Below are positions 12,708 through 29,752 of a stretch of 64,000 bases of DNA, piece by piece. A program made the translations under genes and the position numbers. The notes under the pieces were generated by a model. The model did not search any database. It had not been told where the DNA came from and saw nothing but the letters and a program-made list of their open reading frames with translations. The number at the start of each line of letters is the position of its first letter. Position 1 is the stretch's first letter. The stretch covers positions 992,001-1,056,000 of the forward strand of contig NC_018020.1 in assembly GCF_000266885.1 (NCBI RefSeq), read 5' to 3'. Source of the DNA: Turneriella parva DSM 21527 (GTDB lineage: Bacteria; Spirochaetota; Leptospiria; Turneriellales; Turneriellaceae).

Positions 12708-13778
12708 ATGCGCCGCCCTATGCCGCGAATAAATACCATCTTGTTTATCTGCGCCACACCTCTCTGTCTTTTGGCGTGCTCGAGCTGGGGTAAATTCTGG
12801 GTGCCCGGCGAAGGCGCCAAAATCACTGCCTATTCGATTCCCGCAATCGGCGCGACGGGCATCATCACCGGCACGCAGATCAGCGTGATAGCGCCCACGC
12901 TGACAACACTTTCGCCGCAGGTGGCAACCTTCACGACGACTGGCCAAAGTGTCAGCGTCGCCGGCGTGCCCCAGACAAGCGGAGTGACGAGCAATGACTA
13001 TGCATCGCCTCTTTTCTACACAGTCACGGCAGCCGACGGCTCAAAAAAAACATACACCGTGACGCTGACCGCACCGCGCAGTTATGGCGGCAGCTCGCTG
13101 CGGCTGTGGTTGCGCGCCGACTCACTCGCGCTCGGCGATGGTGCCGACATCGCCAACTGGAACGACGAGAGCGGCACAGCCAACCACATGGGACAGGCTA
13201 CCCTCGGGCAGAGACCGATCTACAGAACTAATCGCGTGAACGGCATGCCAGTTGCGAGTTTCACAGACGCGGCCAATTCGACGATGTCTGGGCCAGACAC
13301 GAATATTAACGACCAGAGCAACGGTTCGCTTTTTATTGTTATCGCCGTAACGGCTGACACGAGTCTTCGCAATATTCTAACGTTGCATGGCCCACAGGGC
13401 AGGGCGTTCGACCTGACCAACGGCCCGCCGACTTCATTTATTCAGGGACGCAACGGCGCAGGCTACAATTTCACTTCGGCCCTTGATTTTGGACTGAATA
13501 ATTTTATCGCCATAGGCAGCGTGCAGGTGGCGGCAATAAGCGTTAACGAAATCTGGAATGGCGATGAAAAGACATCGTCAGGTCTAACATACGCAACTTA
13601 TGACACTAATGGAAGCGGGTCGAATGCGAATTATGTTTCAAACGGCAATCTCGAAGCAGACATTGCAGAAATTCTGTACTTCGATGCCGCGCTCTCGCAA
13701 ACAGAACAAGACAAGGTGTTCTGCTATCTGAATACAAAGTACAACCTCGCGTCAACGCGACGGGTTTGTGATAGCTAG
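12708..13778 (+). CDS. Lipoprotein with LamG/concanavalin-like C-terminal domain
   Basis: Beginning at ATG 12708 the protein is 356 residues with lipobox LLAC. The following ITAYSIPA segment and an Ig-like region ending DGSKKTYTVTLTAP resemble the DUF5018-like surface domain common in leptospiral lipoproteins. From about residue 135 the sequence is laminin-G/concanavalin-like (LRLWLRADSL, DIANWNDESGTANHM, ILYFDAALSQTEQDKVFCYL), a pattern found in surface carbohydrate-binding proteins. It is probably exposed on the outer membrane. GTG 12687 or ATG 12720 are alternative starts. Confidence 0.75.
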   Translation: MRRPMPRINTILFICATPLCLLACSSWGKFWVPGEGAKITAYSIPAIGATGIITGTQISVIAPTLTTLSPQVATFTTTGQSVSVAGVPQTSGVTSNDYASPLFYTVTAADGSKKTYTVTLTAPRSYGGSSLRLWLRADSLALGDGADIANWNDESGTANHMGQATLGQRPIYRTNRVNGMPVASFTDAANSTMSGPDTNINDQSNGSLFIVIAVTADTSLRNILTLHGPQGRAFDLTNGPPTSFIQGRNGAGYNFTSALDFGLNNFIAIGSVQVAAISVNEIWNGDEKTSSGLTYATYDTNGSGSNANYVSNGNLEADIAEILYFDAALSQTEQDKVFCYLNTKYNLASTRRVCDS

Positions 13779-20367: not shown

Positions 20368-20610
20368 GGGGTATACCCGAAAGGACACGCGTCTGCGTGA
20401 ACAGAAGTATTTTGCCGTCAAAGGAATGGCACCGCATTAAGTCCAAATATCCGCCGAAAGTCGTTTGCACATTATCCCATGGAAAATCACTTCAAACCCG
20501 CGTTCCTTCCTGGGGTTTCGTTGACGCATTCACGTCGGTTAGGGCAAATCTCATCACGCTTAACGGTGGTTAAAGATCAAATGCAAATATTTTTGCCACG
20601 GCCAGTCCAA

Positions 20611-20629
20611 TGTTATAACTTGTGTAACA
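20611..20629. promoter_or_regulatory. Possible operator upstream of the antitoxin gene
   Basis: TGTTA (20611-20615) and TAACA (20625-20629) form an inverted repeat ending two bases before the antitoxin start codon, and GTTATAAC within it is itself palindromic. Autoregulation through such a site is typical of antitoxins with an AbrB/MazE fold. The repeat is short, so this is only suggestive. Confidence 0.35.
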
Positions 20630-20631
20630 AC

Positions 20632-20859
20632 ATGGGTCACAAGACCAAAATACGCGCTATCGGCAATTCGCAGGGGGTGACCCTACCCAAAGCCCTGCTC
20701 GATAAATACCAGCTCAAAGAGGGTGATGAAGTCACCACCATCGAGACCGAAGAGGGCATATTGCTGAAATCGCATAACCCCGATTTTGAAGAAGGTATGC
20801 GTGCTTTCGCCAAGTTTTCGGGTCAGTACAAGAATGCTCTGCGCGAACTGGCAAAATGA
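20632..20859 (+). CDS. AbrB/MazE-family antitoxin of a Doc module
   Basis: Starting at ATG 20632 the 75-residue protein has the swapped-hairpin AbrB/MazE DNA-binding pattern TKIRAIGNSQGVTLPKALLD followed by YQLKEGDEVTTIETEEGILL. The acidic/aromatic C-terminal tail would be the part that neutralises the toxin. The stop overlaps the toxin start by four bases. AbrB-type antitoxins paired with Doc toxins are known, replacing the more familiar Phd. An upstream in-frame ATG at 20479 would add 51 residues without family features. Confidence 0.85.
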   Translation: MGHKTKIRAIGNSQGVTLPKALLDKYQLKEGDEVTTIETEEGILLKSHNPDFEEGMRAFAKFSGQYKNALRELAK

Positions 20860-21251
20860 AGCGCGAGCCCAAATGGCTATCAAAAGACCTCGTCATTGCC
20901 ATGCACCGCGAACTGATTCGGGAGTACGGCGGACTTTACGCAATTCGCGATGCGACCTTGCTTGAATCGGCTCTCGCGAAACCTCAGCAGAAATTTGCAT
21001 ACGAAGAATCTGCGACGCTTTTTGATCTGGCAGCCTCGCTGGGGTACGGACTGGCAAAGAACCATCCGTTTGGCGACGGCAATAAACGCATTGCCTTTGC
21101 GGCAATGGGTGTATTCCTGATCATCAATGGCCACGAAATCAACGCCACCGAAGTTGATGCCGTGATCACCATGCTCGGCGTGGCCGACGGCAGCATCGGT
21201 GAAAAGCAGCTCGCCGACTGGCTCAGGGAAAACCACCAAAAAGTGAAATGA
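20856..21251 (+). CDS. Death-on-curing (Doc/Fic family) toxin
   Basis: The 131-residue protein contains the Fic/Doc motif HPFGDGNKRIAF (about residues 69-80), a form of HxFx(D/N)(A/G)NK. The N-terminus is KDLVIAMHRELIREYGGLYAIRD, typical of Doc (pfam Fic). Phage P1 Doc phosphorylates EF-Tu and stops translation; the small size and motif suggest the same here. It overlaps the antitoxin upstream and AmgK downstream by four bases each, so the toxin is the second gene of a five-gene translationally coupled operon. Confidence 0.88.
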   Translation: MKREPKWLSKDLVIAMHRELIREYGGLYAIRDATLLESALAKPQQKFAYEESATLFDLAASLGYGLAKNHPFGDGNKRIAFAAMGVFLIINGHEINATEVDAVITMLGVADGSIGEKQLADWLRENHQKVK

Positions 21252-23489: not shown

Positions 23490-24173
23490 CTAGCGCGGCA
23501 AGAGCTTTTCAATGCCATCTAAAATCAACTCAAGCCCAAATTCAAAATCTGCATCATAGGGTTTCGCACCCGGTGCCACGTTGAGCCAACCTGCATGCTG
23601 AACCACGGTCATTAGATTCGGAAACCGGCCATCTTTCACAAATTCTTTAACACTCTCGACCGCCATCTTTCGGTCTGCTTCTTTCGTCGGCCAATTGACT
23701 TCTTGTAAAACGTAACCATAGACATAGCAGTCGAGAATGACAAACGCGCGATACTGCAGCTCAGTCGGAAAACCGGCCTTATTTAAGATCGAAAGCACCC
23801 TGTCGGCGTAACCGAGTCGCGCCTCACCGGGCGCCATGCGCGATTCGATCAGCACAGATGCCCATGGATGACGCAATAGAGTATGCCGCACCGACCAAGC
23901 GCGGCGCCGCATTGCCTCGCGCCACGGCGTACCGACCGGGGGAATCACCATCTCGCGCAGAATAAGCTCAACAAGGCCGTCGAGCACCGCGTCTTTGTTC
24001 GCGACGTGCTTGTAGAGCGACATTGCCTCGACGCTGAGCTTCGCGGCAAGCTTGCGCATCGACAACGCGTCAACGCCGTCTTTGTCGGCAATCGCCAACG
24101 CGGCCTTCAATACGCGCTCACGGCTTAAGGGACGGCGAATTGAGGATTCAGTCGTTTTCTTTTTTTGCGCCAC
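23490..24173 (-). CDS. TetR-family transcriptional regulator of the GGCTTACA regulon
   Basis: From GTG 24173 the product is 227 residues. An N-terminal helix-turn-helix (RERVLKAALAIADKDGVDAL, then MRKLAAKLSVEAMSLYKHVA) is followed by a TetR_C-type ligand domain. The open frame reaches 24545, but that extension overlaps the divergent gene at 24382 and looks non-coding, so the real start is uncertain; no clear ribosome site is seen. A palindrome (24307-24323) in the divergent gap, with two more copies downstream, is likely its operator. It would repress the outer-membrane, cyclase and dehydrogenase genes to its right. Confidence 0.8.
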   Translation of the reverse strand: MAQKKKTTESSIRRPLSRERVLKAALAIADKDGVDALSMRKLAAKLSVEAMSLYKHVANKDAVLDGLVELILREMVIPPVGTPWREAMRRRAWSVRHTLLRHPWASVLIESRMAPGEARLGYADRVLSILNKAGFPTELQYRAFVILDCYVYGYVLQEVNWPTKEADRKMAVESVKEFVKDGRFPNLMTVVQHAGWLNVAPGAKPYDADFEFGLELILDGIEKLLPR

Positions 24174-24306
24174 TGGTTGAACCGGCTTACGGTGTAGTCG
24201 AATGATTCCATTTTCGCTGCGATGCAGCGCGTCAACCCCTTGATCCGCCGATTCTAAACAGTCCCCTCGGCGGTTTAGTATCGGCGGACATGAATCTTGC
24301 TTTACA

Positions 24307-24323
24307 GGCTTACACTGTAAGCC
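24307..24323. promoter_or_regulatory. TetR operator 1, GGCTTACA-N-TGTAAGCC
   Basis: A perfect 8-bp-arm palindrome sits 58 bases upstream of the plus-strand gene at 24382 and about 134 bases from the proposed TetR start. TTTACA precedes it directly and could act as a -35 box. The same core recurs at 25067-25083 and 26386-26402. Confidence 0.8.
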
Positions 24324-24381
24324 GTAGCGACCACGCTGCCCGGGTCGGGACGATTTCGCATCCGCGCGGCGAGGAGAAAAA

Positions 24382-25038
24382 ATGAAAAAGACAATTTCGA
24401 TGGCAGCACTGCTCGCCCTGCTCGCACTCAGCGGCGCGGGCAGCATTTCTGCGCAAAAAGCGGCCGCGGCATCGGCGACCGTACAGAATGAACCGCCGGC
24501 GGCAGAACCCTTCAACCGGTACTTTATCGGCAGTTCGCTCTTCATGGTGATGAATGCCGTGGCGAGCCCTTCACCCGATTTCTACCAGCTCAACTTCGGT
24601 TATTGGCTGACAAAAAAAGATGTGCTTTCGGTTGAGGCGATTACGTGGACCTACCACCGCGCGCTGGGCACACCCTGGGGGCCCGATATGAGCGATGATG
24701 CCCAGCGTTACCCTGGCTACGTTCGCGCATACGGTGTGGGTATCGCCTACCAAAGATACCTGTGGCAGGGCCTCTACGCAGCCGTACACGCGTTGCCGCT
24801 TTTGCAGCAATTCAAGGCACCCGACGGTAAGACTCTGCAAGAGGGTTTTCAGCTGTTCATGACGCTGCGACTGGGCTATCACTTCAGCTTCTGCGACGAC
24901 CACGTCTTCATCGAACCTTCGATTGCCGTGACGCACTGGCCAATCAATACCAACGTGCCAGCAGACTTCGCACGCCTCGACAGCCGCTGGCCGAGTTACT
25001 TCATAGAACCAGGGCTGCACGTGGGGTTCAAGTTTTGA
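24382..25038 (+). CDS. Secreted, probably outer-membrane protein under TetR control
   Basis: The 218-residue protein has a signal peptide (SMAALLALLALSGAGSISAQ). Aromatic-rich alternating strands follow (FYQLNFGYWLTKKDVLSVEA, FMTLRLGYHFSF), and it ends EPGLHVGFKF, consistent with a small beta-barrel. It has a strong GAGGAG ribosome site. It lies directly after operator 1. A 3' fragment with an almost identical ending (EPGLYFGFNFNL) is found just downstream at 25089-25148, suggesting a former duplicate. Function unknown. Confidence 0.7.
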   Translation: MKKTISMAALLALLALSGAGSISAQKAAAASATVQNEPPAAEPFNRYFIGSSLFMVMNAVASPSPDFYQLNFGYWLTKKDVLSVEAITWTYHRALGTPWGPDMSDDAQRYPGYVRAYGVGIAYQRYLWQGLYAAVHALPLLQQFKAPDGKTLQEGFQLFMTLRLGYHFSFCDDHVFIEPSIAVTHWPINTNVPADFARLDSRWPSYFIEPGLHVGFKF

Positions 25039-25061
25039 AAGCGCGGATTTCTTTTTTAGAC

Positions 25062-25088
25062 CCAAAGGCTTACATTGTAAGCCTTTGG
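25062..25088. promoter_or_regulatory. TetR operator 2 within a perfect 27-bp palindrome
   Basis: The core GGCTTACA-T-TGTAAGCC (25067-25083) is extended to 13-bp arms, CCAAAGGCTTACA and its complement, around one central base. It lies 24 bases after the upstream stop and 65 bases before the cyclase ATG. No T-run follows, so a Rho-independent terminator is less likely than an operator, though both uses are possible. Confidence 0.75.
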
Positions 25089-25148
25089 TGCCTCAGGTGC
25101 TTTGGCTTTGAACCCGGGCTGTACTTCGGGTTTAACTTTAACCTCTAA
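25089..25148 (+). pseudogene. 3' remnant of a duplicated outer-membrane protein gene
   Basis: Translated from 25089, this stretch reads CLRCFGFEPGLYFGFNFNL followed by a stop. It is clearly similar to the C-terminus EPGLHVGFKF of the gene ending at 25038. It has no start codon and lies between operator 2 and the cyclase. The simplest reading is that a paralogous gene with its own operator once stood here and was deleted down to its last codons. Confidence 0.6.
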
Positions 25149-25152
25149 CAAG

Positions 25153-26364
25153 ATGTCTGCGCCATTTGACTCGATTGTACTCGATCGCGAACGCAAGAAT
25201 GAGCGCACGGTCGCCAAACTACGCTTGGCCCTGAATCTTTTCAGTCTGGTCGCTGATTTTGCGGGCTACACCCATATCATTGACTTCACGAATGTGACAC
25301 CGACCTGGCAGACTCTCGCGCTGGACGCAACTCTTACCTGCATCTCGTGCCTTGTTCTTGTCTGGGTAACGCAGCACAGCTATTGGCGCGGCACCAAATT
25401 CGCCACTATCAGCCTCGACTACGTGCTTCTGACCACGCTTATTCTTTTTGACCCGACAGTGTCCCAAAGTCCACAGATTTTGCCCTGGATGGCTCTCGTC
25501 GCGGGGTTGTTTGTCTATTCGTATAATCTGCTGCGGTTTTCAGTCGCGGGAACTCTCTATGCTGGCGCACACGCAATCGCGATGTTCTGCTATTTTGCTA
25601 TCAGGTGCAATGTCGCTGATTTCGTACCGATGCTTTTCTCACTCTTGATGCTGCTTGCGATCGGCCTCATCGTCACCATTTCTAACCTGAAAATGATGCG
25701 TGAGGCAAACGCAAAGGTCATGATGGAACGCTTTCTGGCCCCCGAGCTTGTCAGCGAACTGCTCACGGCGAAAACCCTGCCCGTCAGCGGGGGAAAAGCC
25801 CAAAGGATCACAATTCTTTTCGCCGACATACGGTCGTTCACCGCGATGGCCGAGAAGCACAGTCCAGAGCAAGTGGTGCATTTTCTAAACGATTACCTGT
25901 CGAAGATGACCGAAATCATTTTTGCGCAAAACGGCACGGTCGATAAGTTTATCGGCGACGCAGTCATGGCCTTTTTCGGAGCCCCCCGGCCAACCGAAAG
26001 AGACGAAGAGAATGCATTGCTGGCAGCTGCCGCGATGACCAGGGCATTACCCGAGATAGCCGCGCGGCACCCCGGCATGGCGCCACTCGCGATCGGCATC
26101 GGCATTCACACGGGCGAGGCGATTGTCGGCAATATCGGCTCTGAACGCCGACTCGACTACACCGCGATTGGCGACGCCGTGAATCTGGCCTCGCGCATCG
26201 AGGGCTTAACGAAACAGTATGGCTGCGGAATTCTTCTATCAGAGGCAACTCGGATCGGGCTGCCGGCCGATGGATTGCCGGGAATGGCGTTGCGGGAGAT
26301 TGATGTGGTGGCAGTCAGGGGAAAGGCTCAGCCAACTCTCATTTACGAGGCAGTCACGACATGA
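25153..26364 (+). CDS. Membrane-bound class III adenylate cyclase
   Basis: From ATG 25153 the product is 403 residues. About six transmembrane helices (residues 25-190) precede a catalytic domain with ITILFADIRSFTAMAEKHSP (first metal Asp), GTVDKFIGDAVMAFFGAP (adenine-selecting Lys, second metal Asp) and GSERRLDYTAIGDAVNLASR. The Lys and Asp at the specificity positions favour ATP over GTP. It sits downstream of operator 2, which suggests the TetR regulator links its ligand to cAMP signalling. Confidence 0.85.
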   Translation: MSAPFDSIVLDRERKNERTVAKLRLALNLFSLVADFAGYTHIIDFTNVTPTWQTLALDATLTCISCLVLVWVTQHSYWRGTKFATISLDYVLLTTLILFDPTVSQSPQILPWMALVAGLFVYSYNLLRFSVAGTLYAGAHAIAMFCYFAIRCNVADFVPMLFSLLMLLAIGLIVTISNLKMMREANAKVMMERFLAPELVSELLTAKTLPVSGGKAQRITILFADIRSFTAMAEKHSPEQVVHFLNDYLSKMTEIIFAQNGTVDKFIGDAVMAFFGAPRPTERDEENALLAAAAMTRALPEIAARHPGMAPLAIGIGIHTGEAIVGNIGSERRLDYTAIGDAVNLASRIEGLTKQYGCGILLSEATRIGLPADGLPGMALREIDVVAVRGKAQPTLIYEAVTT

Positions 26365-26379
26365 CCATCGCGATTTTGC

Positions 26380-26407
26380 TTGACAGGCTTACACTGTAAG
26401 CTATCAA
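26380..26407 (+). promoter_or_regulatory. Promoter with TetR operator 3 in its spacer
   Basis: TTGACA (26380-26385) and TATCAA (26402-26407) are 16 bp apart, and the spacer is the operator GGCTTACACTGTAAGC (26386-26401), lacking only the final C of the full palindrome. A regulator bound here would block RNA polymerase, as in classic TetR-type repression. It drives the operon starting at 26435. Confidence 0.78.
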
Positions 26408-26434
26408 CACGCTCAGCTGCAAAGGAGCAAGACC

Positions 26435-26866
26435 ATGAACACACAAACTTACCGGCAACCCCAACTCGCAGAATTCACAGTTAACATAAGGCTGAAGCTG
26501 GCAGGGCTGTGGACGAGCCTCATGTTTCTCTACATCTACGTGGATTATTTCCACTTATACATGCCTGGGTCACTGACTGATATTTCGGCAGGCAAGGTAT
26601 TTACCTTTCAAATTTCGCAGACGTTTCTGCTGGTGACACTGGTCTCCATGACGGTCCCGGCGCTGATGATTTGTCTGTCTATCGCCTTGCCAGCAAAGGC
26701 AAATCGAATCACCAATATGCTCATCGCGACGCTTTTTATTCCTTACACATTGTTTAATCTGGCAGGCGAAGCCTGGATTCACATGTATCTCGCTGCCGGG
26801 GTCGAAGTTCTCCTGCTGCTGCTGATTATCCGTTACGCGTCAAAATGGCCGCGAGCAGAGATATGA
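26435..26866 (+). CDS. DUF6326-like four-helix membrane protein
   Basis: The 143-residue protein has four transmembrane helices and the motif LWTSLMFLYIYVDYFHLYMP, which resembles the DUF6326 family. A GGAGCAAG ribosome site precedes the ATG. It is the first gene of the TetR-controlled operon and overlaps the dehydrogenase start by four bases. Function unknown. Confidence 0.7.
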   Translation: MNTQTYRQPQLAEFTVNIRLKLAGLWTSLMFLYIYVDYFHLYMPGSLTDISAGKVFTFQISQTFLLVTLVSMTVPALMICLSIALPAKANRITNMLIATLFIPYTLFNLAGEAWIHMYLAAGVEVLLLLLIIRYASKWPRAEI

Positions 26867-27858
26867 AAACGCACAACCTGATGCGCGCAGCCGTTTGTAC
26901 TGCGTACGGCGAACCCGAAGTGCTGCAAATTCAAGAACTGCCAGTACCAGTACCCGGCCCGCGCGACGTGCTCATTCGCGTGCACGCCAGTGCAGTCAAC
27001 TCTGCCGACTGGCGGCTGCGTCGCCCCGACCCATGGGGCGTGCGGCTCTTTTTGGGACTCAGAAAACCCCGCATCAAAGTTTTAGGGGGAATTTTCGCGG
27101 GTGAGGTGGTCGCAACCGGGGCAAAGGTGACCCGCTTTCGTTCTGGTGACAGGCTCTTCGGTTCGACGCTGATGCGCTTCGGCGGCTACGGCGAGTACGT
27201 TTCACTGCCCGAGAAGGCAACGATGACTACCATGCCGCGCGGCTTCAGCTTCAACGCTGCAGCAGCGCTGACGTTTGGCTACCTCACAGCGCTGAACTTT
27301 CTGCGCAGAGTATACCTGAAAGCAGGGCAAAATGTCATGATCGTCGGGGCTTCGGGTTCTGTCGGCACTGCAACTGTGCAGCTGGCCGTGCATTTCGGTG
27401 CAAATGTGACCGGCGTCTCGAGCGCAGCCAACCTCGAGCTGGTGCGCCAGCAGGGCGCCGGCCGCGCGCTCGACTACAACAGTGCCGAGTATGCAAACGA
27501 TAGAACCCAATACGATGTTGTCATCGATACGGTCGGCAAAACACACTGGAAAAACCATCTGACCCGGGTGAAGCCAGACGGTAAGCTGGTACTCGTTGCA
27601 GCCGGCGCGCTCAAAACGCTCTACCTGCCGCTGTTGCAGCCTTTCTATAAACCCCGCCTCATGCCGGTTCTTGCCGCTGAGAAAAGGGTCGATCTTGAAA
27701 TTGTGAGCGATCTCGCAGAACAGGGTAAGCTCCACCCCGTGATTGACCGCACCTACCCGCTCGATGAGATAGCCGAAGCACACCGCTACGTCGAAGCTGG
27801 TCACAAGAAGGGCAATGTTGTCGTCACAGTAGCAAGGGGAACTCATGAGCATATCTGA
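26863..27858 (+). CDS. MDR-family NAD(P)-dependent alcohol dehydrogenase / quinone oxidoreductase
   Basis: From ATG 26863 the product is 331 residues with the medium-chain dehydrogenase layout. The N-terminal GroES-like domain has VLIRVHASAVNSADWRLRRP and GIFAGEVVATGAKVTRFRSG. The Rossmann domain has VMIVGASGSVGTATVQLAV, and the C-terminus is VIDRTYPLDEIAEAHRYVE. The zinc ligands of classic alcohol dehydrogenases are missing, so it belongs to the zeta-crystallin/quinone-oxidoreductase-like group. It probably reduces a reactive carbonyl or enone. A similar enzyme is encoded at 47.5 kb under another TetR. Confidence 0.88.
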   Translation: MKTHNLMRAAVCTAYGEPEVLQIQELPVPVPGPRDVLIRVHASAVNSADWRLRRPDPWGVRLFLGLRKPRIKVLGGIFAGEVVATGAKVTRFRSGDRLFGSTLMRFGGYGEYVSLPEKATMTTMPRGFSFNAAAALTFGYLTALNFLRRVYLKAGQNVMIVGASGSVGTATVQLAVHFGANVTGVSSAANLELVRQQGAGRALDYNSAEYANDRTQYDVVIDTVGKTHWKNHLTRVKPDGKLVLVAAGALKTLYLPLLQPFYKPRLMPVLAAEKRVDLEIVSDLAEQGKLHPVIDRTYPLDEIAEAHRYVEAGHKKGNVVVTVARGTHEHI

Positions 27859-28471
27859 AAGGTCACGGCAACGCATCGCGGGCACACTTTTTCTGTGCGC
27901 GTTTTTGGCGTACGGAATTGGTACGTCGCTCGTCGCGCCGCTCATCGATGCAGGCAATGCGACCGCAGTCTTGCTCGGTGCGCGCGGCCAGCTGATTGTT
28001 GGCTGTGCAATGATGCTGAGCAATTCTGTGGTTGTGATCGCGATCGGCCTGCTGCTAAGGCCCGCGCTCGCGAGCGCAAACGCAAGAACTGCCAACACCT
28101 ACGTGACTGCGCGCGTCTTCGAAGGTCTTGCACTCGCAGTGGGAGCGTTCGCGCTCATGTCGCTCGCGTTCCCGGGCGATGCACTTTCGCTTTCTCACGT
28201 AGCATCGGCAAAAAGAATAAACTTCATCGGCTACCAGTCAGGCATGCTCGCGCTGGGGTTAGGCAGCCTGCCGTTTTGTCTTTTGCTCTTTCAGCAGAGA
28301 TTCGTGCCGCGCTGGCTCGCTCTCTGGGGTCTTTTGGGTTACGCCATTTTTGCAACCGGCGCGCTGCTCGAATTATTCGGCCTGCCATACGGCATCGCGC
28401 TTTCTGTACCCGGTGGACTGTTTGAACTGGTATTCGGTGTCTGGCTGATTATTAGAGGAGTAAAATTATGA
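27845..28471 (+). CDS. DUF4386 family membrane protein
   Basis: The 208-residue protein has six transmembrane helices and the DUF4386 pattern (RSRQRIAGTLFLCAFLAYGI near the N-terminus, ASAKRINFIGYQSGMLALG mid-protein). It overlaps the dehydrogenase end by 14 bases and the next gene by four. It is the third gene of the TetR-controlled operon. Function unknown in all relatives I know. Confidence 0.75.
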   Translation: MSISERSRQRIAGTLFLCAFLAYGIGTSLVAPLIDAGNATAVLLGARGQLIVGCAMMLSNSVVVIAIGLLLRPALASANARTANTYVTARVFEGLALAVGAFALMSLAFPGDALSLSHVASAKRINFIGYQSGMLALGLGSLPFCLLLFQQRFVPRWLALWGLLGYAIFATGALLELFGLPYGIALSVPGGLFELVFGVWLIIRGVKL

Positions 28472-28860
28472 AAAGTCTCACCAAGATTATTTTCTCGCCC
28501 AAACACATCTTTCTTGTCGACGGGTTGGGCGCCGCCTATTCGGCGACGATGCTGGGAGTCGTACTCGCAGCTTTCGTGCCGTTCTTCGGAATGCCAACTG
28601 CAGTGCTGTACCCCCTCGCGGGTACAGCCGTCTGCCTTGCCGTGTATTCGCTGAGCTGCCACTTTCTCAAACCACGGCGCTGGCAGACATTCTTGCGCGG
28701 CATCGCGACTCTGAATCTCGCCTACTGCGCTGCTTCTGTGGTGCTCATGTCTCTCTATTGGGATTCACTGACCATATGGGGGGCAGCGTATTTTGTTTCG
28801 GAAAAGTTTGTAGTGATGGGTCTGGCTTTGCAGGAGTTTTCACTCTCCCGGAAGTCATGA
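28468..28860 (+). CDS. Four-helix membrane protein
   Basis: The 130-residue protein has four predicted transmembrane helices (VDGLGAAYSATMLGVVLAAF, TAVLYPLAGTAVCLAVYSLS and two more). AGAGGAG precedes the ATG. It overlaps the DUF4386 gene by four bases. No family was recognised. It is part of the TetR-controlled operon and is followed after 16 bases by the hydrolase. Confidence 0.7.
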   Translation: MKSLTKIIFSPKHIFLVDGLGAAYSATMLGVVLAAFVPFFGMPTAVLYPLAGTAVCLAVYSLSCHFLKPRRWQTFLRGIATLNLAYCAASVVLMSLYWDSLTIWGAAYFVSEKFVVMGLALQEFSLSRKS

Positions 28861-28876: not shown

Positions 28877-29752
28877 ATGACTCAACGCATACAGAAGTGG
28901 CTCAACGGCGGCAAGTACCTCGAAGTCGACGGCCTGCAGATCTTCTACCAGGTCCATGGCCATGGGCCTGATCTATTGCTACTACACGGATACCCGTATA
29001 ACAGCTACGACTTTCACCTGGTCGTGCCCGAGCTGGCGAGAAGCCACCGCGTTGTGCTGTTCGATTTTCCCGGCATGGGTTTCTCTGATAAGCCGCGGCA
29101 GCACGAGTACACCTTCGCAGGCTATGCAAAGGTCGTGAACGCACTCGCGCGCCACCTCGAAATTCGCGAGGCCGACATTCTCGCGCATGACCTCGGCGTC
29201 AGTGTCGCGCAAGAGCTGTTGGCACAGCAGAGTGAGAGCTCCTTCAAGTTTCGCTCGGTCGCGTTCATGAACGGAGGCCTATTCACCGATGTCTATCGCC
29301 CGCGGCTGATACAGCGTGTGCTCTCGCAGTCACCCGACTGGCTGGGCGCGTTTCTGAGTCAGCGCATTGGGCGCAAGGCTGTCGAACGACCCGTCGTTTC
29401 ACTCTTTGGCAGGGACACGAAACCGTCAGCAGAGCTGCTCGACGACTTCTGGAGTATTCTAAACTTCAAAGAAGGTAAGGCAATTGCTTATCGCATCGGC
29501 CGGCTGGTCTTTGAAAAAGAAAAACACCAGCAGCGCTGGCATCAAGCCATGCGCGAAACAAAAACTCCGCTCTGCTACATCTGCGGGCCTGCAGACCCCA
29601 ACTCGGGCCGTCACATGGCCGAGCGCTACCGGCAGCATCTGCCGCAATCACCGGTCTATTTTCTAAGCGACACGATTGGCCACTGGCCTCAGCTCGAGGC
29701 GCCCGAAGAAGTGCTGCAACAGCTGGGCGAGTTCTGGCGGCGCTTTCGCTAG
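28877..29752 (+). CDS. Alpha/beta hydrolase, haloalkane dehalogenase/epoxide hydrolase-like
   Basis: From ATG 28877 (ribosome site AAAGAGGAG) the product is 291 residues. It has the oxyanion HGYPYNSYDF, the nucleophile elbow LAHDLGVSV (Asp as nucleophile in place of Ser) and a C-terminal IGHWPQLEAPEEV carrying the catalytic His. An Asp nucleophile fits dehalogenases or epoxide hydrolases rather than esterases. With the dehydrogenase it suggests the operon detoxifies a lipophilic compound, perhaps the ligand of the TetR. It is the last gene of the operon. Confidence 0.85.
   Translation: MTQRIQKWLNGGKYLEVDGLQIFYQVHGHGPDLLLLHGYPYNSYDFHLVVPELARSHRVVLFDFPGMGFSDKPRQHEYTFAGYAKVVNALARHLEIREADILAHDLGVSVAQELLAQQSESSFKFRSVAFMNGGLFTDVYRPRLIQRVLSQSPDWLGAFLSQRIGRKAVERPVVSLFGRDTKPSAELLDDFWSILNFKEGKAIAYRIGRLVFEKEKHQQRWHQAMRETKTPLCYICGPADPNSGRHMAERYRQHLPQSPVYFLSDTIGHWPQLEAPEEVLQQLGEFWRRFR

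Follow-up and report, generated by a model that had tools for sequence, protein, structure and literature searches.

The closest described systems are TetR/tetO of tetracycline resistance and CifR-cif-morB of Pseudomonas, in which an oxidoreductase and an alpha/beta hydrolase are under the control of a TetR-type repressor. The repressor at the present locus shares both of its Pfam domains (TetR_N and TetR_C_1) with TetR, and its predicted operator follows the tetO geometry, with 6-bp arms on either side of a single central base; set against tetO, the half-sites would differ at positions 3 and 4 alone. A further tetO-like trait, divergent genes with paired operators, is found in distant orthologues. 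The likeness to CifR-cif-morB lies in the predicted TetR regulon, which also combines an oxidoreductase with an alpha/beta hydrolase, the latter having Cif as its best PDB match. Literature searches on CifR and on DUF4386 with TetR gave nothing usable, and a search on the core sequence CTTACANTGTAAG found no report of such an operator.

The window, by which we mean the whole 64,000-nt stretch that was analysed, covers positions 992001-1056000 of contig 1 of the Turneriella parva genome (G000; 4,409,302 bases, two contigs). An earlier note on this DNA had proposed three operators with the palindrome GGCTTACA-N-TGTAAGCC, and all three are where it placed them, two with 0 mismatches (24307-24323 and 25067-25083) and one with 1 mismatch (26386-26402). 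Its count was incomplete, as it missed a weak site at 24184-24200 and a fourth operator at C1:939064-939080, which lies outside the window, 77 kb off, between two AHSA1 genes and ~50 bp 5′ of the second. We use GGCTTACANTGTAAGCC as the preferred 17-mer and CTTACANTGTAAG as the 13-mer core. The features of the locus are as follows, G001 and G002 being two of the related genomes.

23490..24173, minus strand: tetR-type repressor gene; GTG start proposed at 24173, frame open further upstream
24184..24200, no strand: weak operator-like site GGCTTACGGTGTAGTCG before tetR; half-degenerate, 3 mismatches in the 13-mer core
24307..24323, no strand: operator 1, exact 17-mer; abuts a TTTACA -35-like box, 5′ of OMP1; conserved in G002
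24382..25038, plus strand: OMP1, 218 aa, putative beta-barrel protein of the outer membrane; signal-like N-terminus, terminal Phe
25067..25083, no strand: operator 2, exact 17-mer; flanks alignable with the spacer between OMP1 and OMP2 in G002, -35 eroded
25098..25148, plus strand: OMP2 remnant (CFGFEPGLYFGFNFNL and stop), the last 16 codons plus stop, recognised by comparison with the 3′ end of OMP2 in G002
25153..26364, plus strand: class III cyclase of the adenylate type, a membrane protein of 403 aa, preceded by operator 2
26386..26402, no strand: operator 3, 17-mer with 1 mismatch; abuts TTGACA, 5′ of the five-gene operon
26435..26866, plus strand: DUF6326 membrane protein (Pfam PF19851, 2.8e-10); DUF6326-MDR with an operator also in G001
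26863..27858, plus strand: MDR (quinone oxidoreductase-like) dehydrogenase (Pfam ADH_N/ADH_zinc_N_2), conserved partner of TetR
27845..28471, plus strand: DUF4386 membrane protein (Pfam PF14329, 2.9e-31)
28468..28860, plus strand: putative membrane protein, 130 aa; start overlaps within the operon, no Pfam match over cut-off
28877..29752, plus strand: alpha/beta hydrolase with an Asp nucleophile elbow (HDLG), MEST/epoxide-hydrolase-like (Abhydrolase_1, 6.9e-21)

The palindrome is rare. Shuffled versions of the window held 0.12 matches at ≤3 mismatches, and none of 100 shuffles reached three. A scan of all 4.41 Mb found only four places at ≤1 mismatch to the 17-mer, each of them upstream of a gene start, and the next matches need 3 mismatches; the palindrome is thus not common at unrelated genes. 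Sites with 3 mismatches in the same genome were set aside as no commoner than the control. The 13-mer core occurs genome-wide four times exactly and once more with one mismatch, the reversed control pattern nine times. Among ~85,000 species, the exact 17-mer was found in 36 stretches, with regulon genes only in those of two known Turneriella relatives. None of the remaining stretches has the TetR and many are terminator-like, so that the exact 17-mer is uninformative beyond the Turneriella group.

At sites 1, 3 and 4, a -35-like hexamer (TTGACA, TTTACA or similar) ends 2 nt before the core, a spacing repeated at most sites of G002, G001 and a further related genome, G029; the operator would therefore occupy the start of the promoter spacer. 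The MDR gene of G002 is preceded by the same TTGACAGG-operator as operator 3. Around the latter, the TTGACA and TATCAA hexamers between which the earlier note had placed the third copy are literally present, 16 nt apart, but the promoter scanner reported no sigma-70-like promoter anywhere from 24100 to 26500, the -10 elements being poor. The weak site directly 5′ of tetR recurs at the same place in G002 (2 mismatches) and in stronger form in G001 (as GGCTTACGTCGTAAGCC), which suggests autoregulation of tetR.

The protein encoded beside these sites combines a helix-turn-helix domain (TetR_N, PF00440; 2.4e-6, 27.7 bits vs a cut-off of 24) with a ligand-binding domain of the TetR type (TetR_C_1, PF02909; 4.8e-25). 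It matches TetR class D in the PDB (2.8e-17) yet scores only 93.1 bits against the tetracycline repressor equivalog NF010319, whose cut-off is 265. As for a member of the TetR family, palindromic operators lie near its own gene and are conserved along with the protein.

We compared 61 related genomes, 48 of which form the class subset. At ≤1 mismatch, the 17-mer occurs in G000, G001, G002 and G029, and once in the distant G053, a match set aside because no regulon genes lie nearby. TetR orthologues are present in 11 of the 48 class genomes, the source genome included, and the four class genomes with 17-mer sites are precisely those with the four closest orthologues (100, 78, 51 and 48% identical). 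If genomes were independent, the chance of that overlap would be 1 in C(48,4) = 194,580, although related genomes are not independent and sampling is thin. Four genomes of the same genus that lack the repressor have no 17-mer site. The sites of G002 lie 5′ of OMP1, OMP2 (an OMP1 paralogue) and MDR, those of G001 5′ of OMP2, DUF6326-MDR, AHSA1 and tetR, and the single site of G029 between tetR and MDR.

The seven further orthologues (G020, G043, G038, G009, G028, G032 and G033; 35-41% identical) are accompanied by CTTACANTGTAAG-like sites in pairs, the two starts being separated by 23-37 bp. Most of these pairs lie where tetR and the MDR-dehydrogenase gene diverge; in G043 the pair stands before tetR and the contig stops short of MDR. 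Overall, sites adjoin tetR in 11 of 11 TetR-bearing genomes, and an MDR gene follows the operator in 10. Exact core sites in G038 (C34) and G020 (C29) lie within genes and were discounted as chance occurrences. In 10 of the 11 repressors the recognition helix has the sequence VEAMSLY, and in that of G009 VKAMSLY, whereas a TetR relative in G031 (27% identical, helix TGAMTIY) is accompanied by a different palindrome pair, close to TACGTACANCGTACGTA, 30 bp apart (L043 5324-5370). From these comparisons, operator sequence and recognition helix appear to change together. With its TACGTACANCGTACGTA-like pair, the G031 relative amounts to a natural switch of specificity in which helix and operator can be compared.

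Could the palindromes instead be RNA hairpins, acting as terminators or attenuators? The 17-mer can fold into a stem of 7 pairs, the perfect palindrome at site 2 is longer, at 27 bp (-18.8 kcal/mol), and many of the chance 17-mers in unrelated genomes are terminator-like with T-runs. However, no T-run follows any site here, on which ground the terminator reading was rejected, and the sites lie at or after -35 boxes, are often paired in divergent intergenic DNA and track one TetR family, so that we hold a hairpin role to be highly improbable. Nor do we give much credence to the sites being operators of a different regulator of the genome: further TetR-type genes exist in it (four matches listed), but across the class the sites co-occur with this family alone, and they are beside its gene wherever it is found. 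The comparative support for the adjacent TetR as the predicted binder is strong, and the proposal that the palindromes are its operators and define a small regulon very probably holds, given that the sites track the TetR orthologues among the 48 genomes.

Computation gave the sites, their rarity and conservation, the positions of the genes and the joint occurrence of sites and repressor; from these we infer the following scheme of binding, repression and type of inducer. The TetR_C_1-type repressor would bind the CTTACANTGTAAG palindromes as a dimer. Each site being in or beside a promoter, mostly right after the -35 box, the bound repressor would block RNA polymerase sterically and so repress OMP1, the DUF6326-MDR-DUF4386-membrane protein-hydrolase operon, the AHSA1 gene 77 kb away and, probably, tetR as well, until a small molecule at the C-terminal domain releases it. 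We put the probability of this reading, in which TetR represses a small regulon through CTTACANTGTAAG operators beside promoters and is released by a small molecule, at roughly 0.87. With high probability the regulon is real, comprising four operators and probable autoregulation, and of a known kind, its TetR-MDR core being class-wide. The gene families would fit an electrophilic or hydrophobic inducer, detoxified by the MDR dehydrogenase and the hydrolase; the lipophilic inducer suggested earlier for the predicted regulon is plausible.

OMP1 has no Pfam match and no PDB match with E below 0.001. Its structure model is beta-rich at low confidence (mean pLDDT 54.8), a weak barrel hint, and its orthologue in G002 is 80% identical. 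The label of outer-membrane protein stands on the signal-peptide-like N-terminus, the terminal Phe and that low-confidence model, and has no further basis. In the DNA downstream of OMP1, the G002 spacer is recognisable up to and including the operator (an alignment of 42 columns, score 59 vs a shuffle maximum of 24); beyond it, 48 nt align with the tail of the G002 OMP2 (score 61 vs 23). OMP2 is intact in G002 and G001 and in G002 fills the interval between sites 2 and 3; from both alignments, it was deleted in the source genome except for its tail.

The cyclase that now stands behind operator 2 starts 4 nt after the old OMP2 stop codon. It exceeds the Pfam Guanylate_cyc cut-off (1.1e-25, 90.7 bits), matches PDB adenylate cyclases (5e-34), and has the metal Asp pair and the Lys/Asp for adenine of class III adenylate cyclases; the motifs FADIRSFT, TVDKFIGD and RRLDYTAIGDAVNLASR were read in the sequence and aligned to PDB cyclases. 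It has no close orthologue in the genus, and none at this place in G002. On this comparison the cyclase is a newcomer, with operator 2 captured from the deleted OMP2 gene; that deletion brought the cyclase behind it. Compared with G002, site 2 is without the -35 box (ACCCAAAGG vs GCTTACAGG). With OMP2 lost, its operator captured and the -35 decayed, the link to cAMP is lineage-specific and weak.

Whether the repressor also controls the cyclase, so that a single chemical signal would reach detoxification genes and, in parallel, a global cAMP signal, is a separate matter, and we regard it as rather unlikely. To a cyclase that is unregulated behind a relic of the deleted OMP2 promoter, which is compatible with the regulon being right, we would give somewhat less than an even chance: the OMP2 tail lies directly 5′ of the cyclase, the -35 box is eroded, the corresponding place in G002 is without a cyclase, and proximity is cheap where class III cyclase domains number 27-51 in each of the related genomes (about 45 in the 4.4 Mb of G000). 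Against it, the 17-mer of site 2 is still perfect, and cyclases recur by tetR, a different one in the G001 tetR operon and another beside tetR in G028. That makes 3 of 11 loci, vs ~0.06 expected per locus by our estimate; the recurrence is suggestive and could be chance (~2%, likewise our estimate). Of the earlier inclusion of cAMP synthesis in the regulon, the perfect operator before the cyclase stands, but its place in that of the deleted OMP2 and the ~45 cyclase domains leave membership lineage-specific and uncertain.

The five-gene operon was described correctly, its frames overlapping or closely spaced, and the earlier gene labels hold at the family level (TetR_N + TetR_C_1, class III cyclase, DUF6326, MDR, DUF4386, alpha/beta hydrolase). 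The MDR protein is PIG3-like (3.9e-47) yet below the family cut-off. DUF4386 is rare, at 0-3 copies per genome; it adjoins MDR in G009 and lies within the tetR operon in G001. Far from tetR, DUF4386 genes of G028 and G033 have an operator 82-92 bp 5′ of the domain start (two exact, one with 1 mismatch). The operator-preceded distant DUF4386 genes, in other class genomes, are:

L110, 4995
L113, 5248
L115

The hydrolase, labelled dehalogenase-like by the earlier note, is so only at the superfamily level: it has no Trp next to the Asp nucleophile (HDLG, not HDWG), scores 70.5 bits vs a cut-off of 241 for haloalkane dehalogenase (NCBIfam), and has its best PDB matches among Cif-type epoxide hydrolases, over the N-terminal ~100 residues. 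In addition, this last operon gene (28877-29752) resembles MEST/PEG1, an imprinted gene of animals, and may be a bacterial relative of it, with 37% identity over its full length (287 columns) to a sequence taken to be human MEST. The AHSA1 gene has an operator only in G000 and G001; its orthologues in G003 and G002 lack the site and continue straight on from the preceding gene. What is conserved as a core is the pair of TetR and MDR dehydrogenase, to which a DUF4386 membrane protein is often added; OMP, DUF6326 and AHSA1 genes are additions made within the genus.

Elsewhere in the window (20479-21251), an AbrB/MazE-like frame is followed by a Fic/Doc-like frame that has a HPFGDGNKRIAF motif; the two probably form a toxin-antitoxin pair. 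L032 has a comparable Doc-like gene at 13264-13656.

For a repressor family found in free-living spirochetes, the locus yields a specific operator code and a list of targets, both open to testing. It links DUF4386 and DUF6326, families of unknown function, with an MDR dehydrogenase and with a shared signal, and it may also be a base-resolution case of a gene gaining new control by falling behind a deleted neighbour's operator. If the repressor does control the cyclase, the unrelated cyclases that have come to lie by this TetR at 3 of 11 loci would make it a recurrent link from a one-component regulator to a second messenger.

Compared with TetR/tetO, the repressor remains far below the equivalog cut-off, and the regulon has several scattered operators and controls no efflux pump. 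In contrast with CifR-cif-morB, the oxidoreductase is an MDR protein and there is no MFS transporter, and the hydrolase matches Cif only in its N-terminal 100 residues. With the TetR-MDR dehydrogenase pairs of the same class, the source locus shares the arrangement with CTTACANTGTAAG operators; unlike in those pairs, the Turneriella operator has spread to OMP, DUF6326 and AHSA1 genes.
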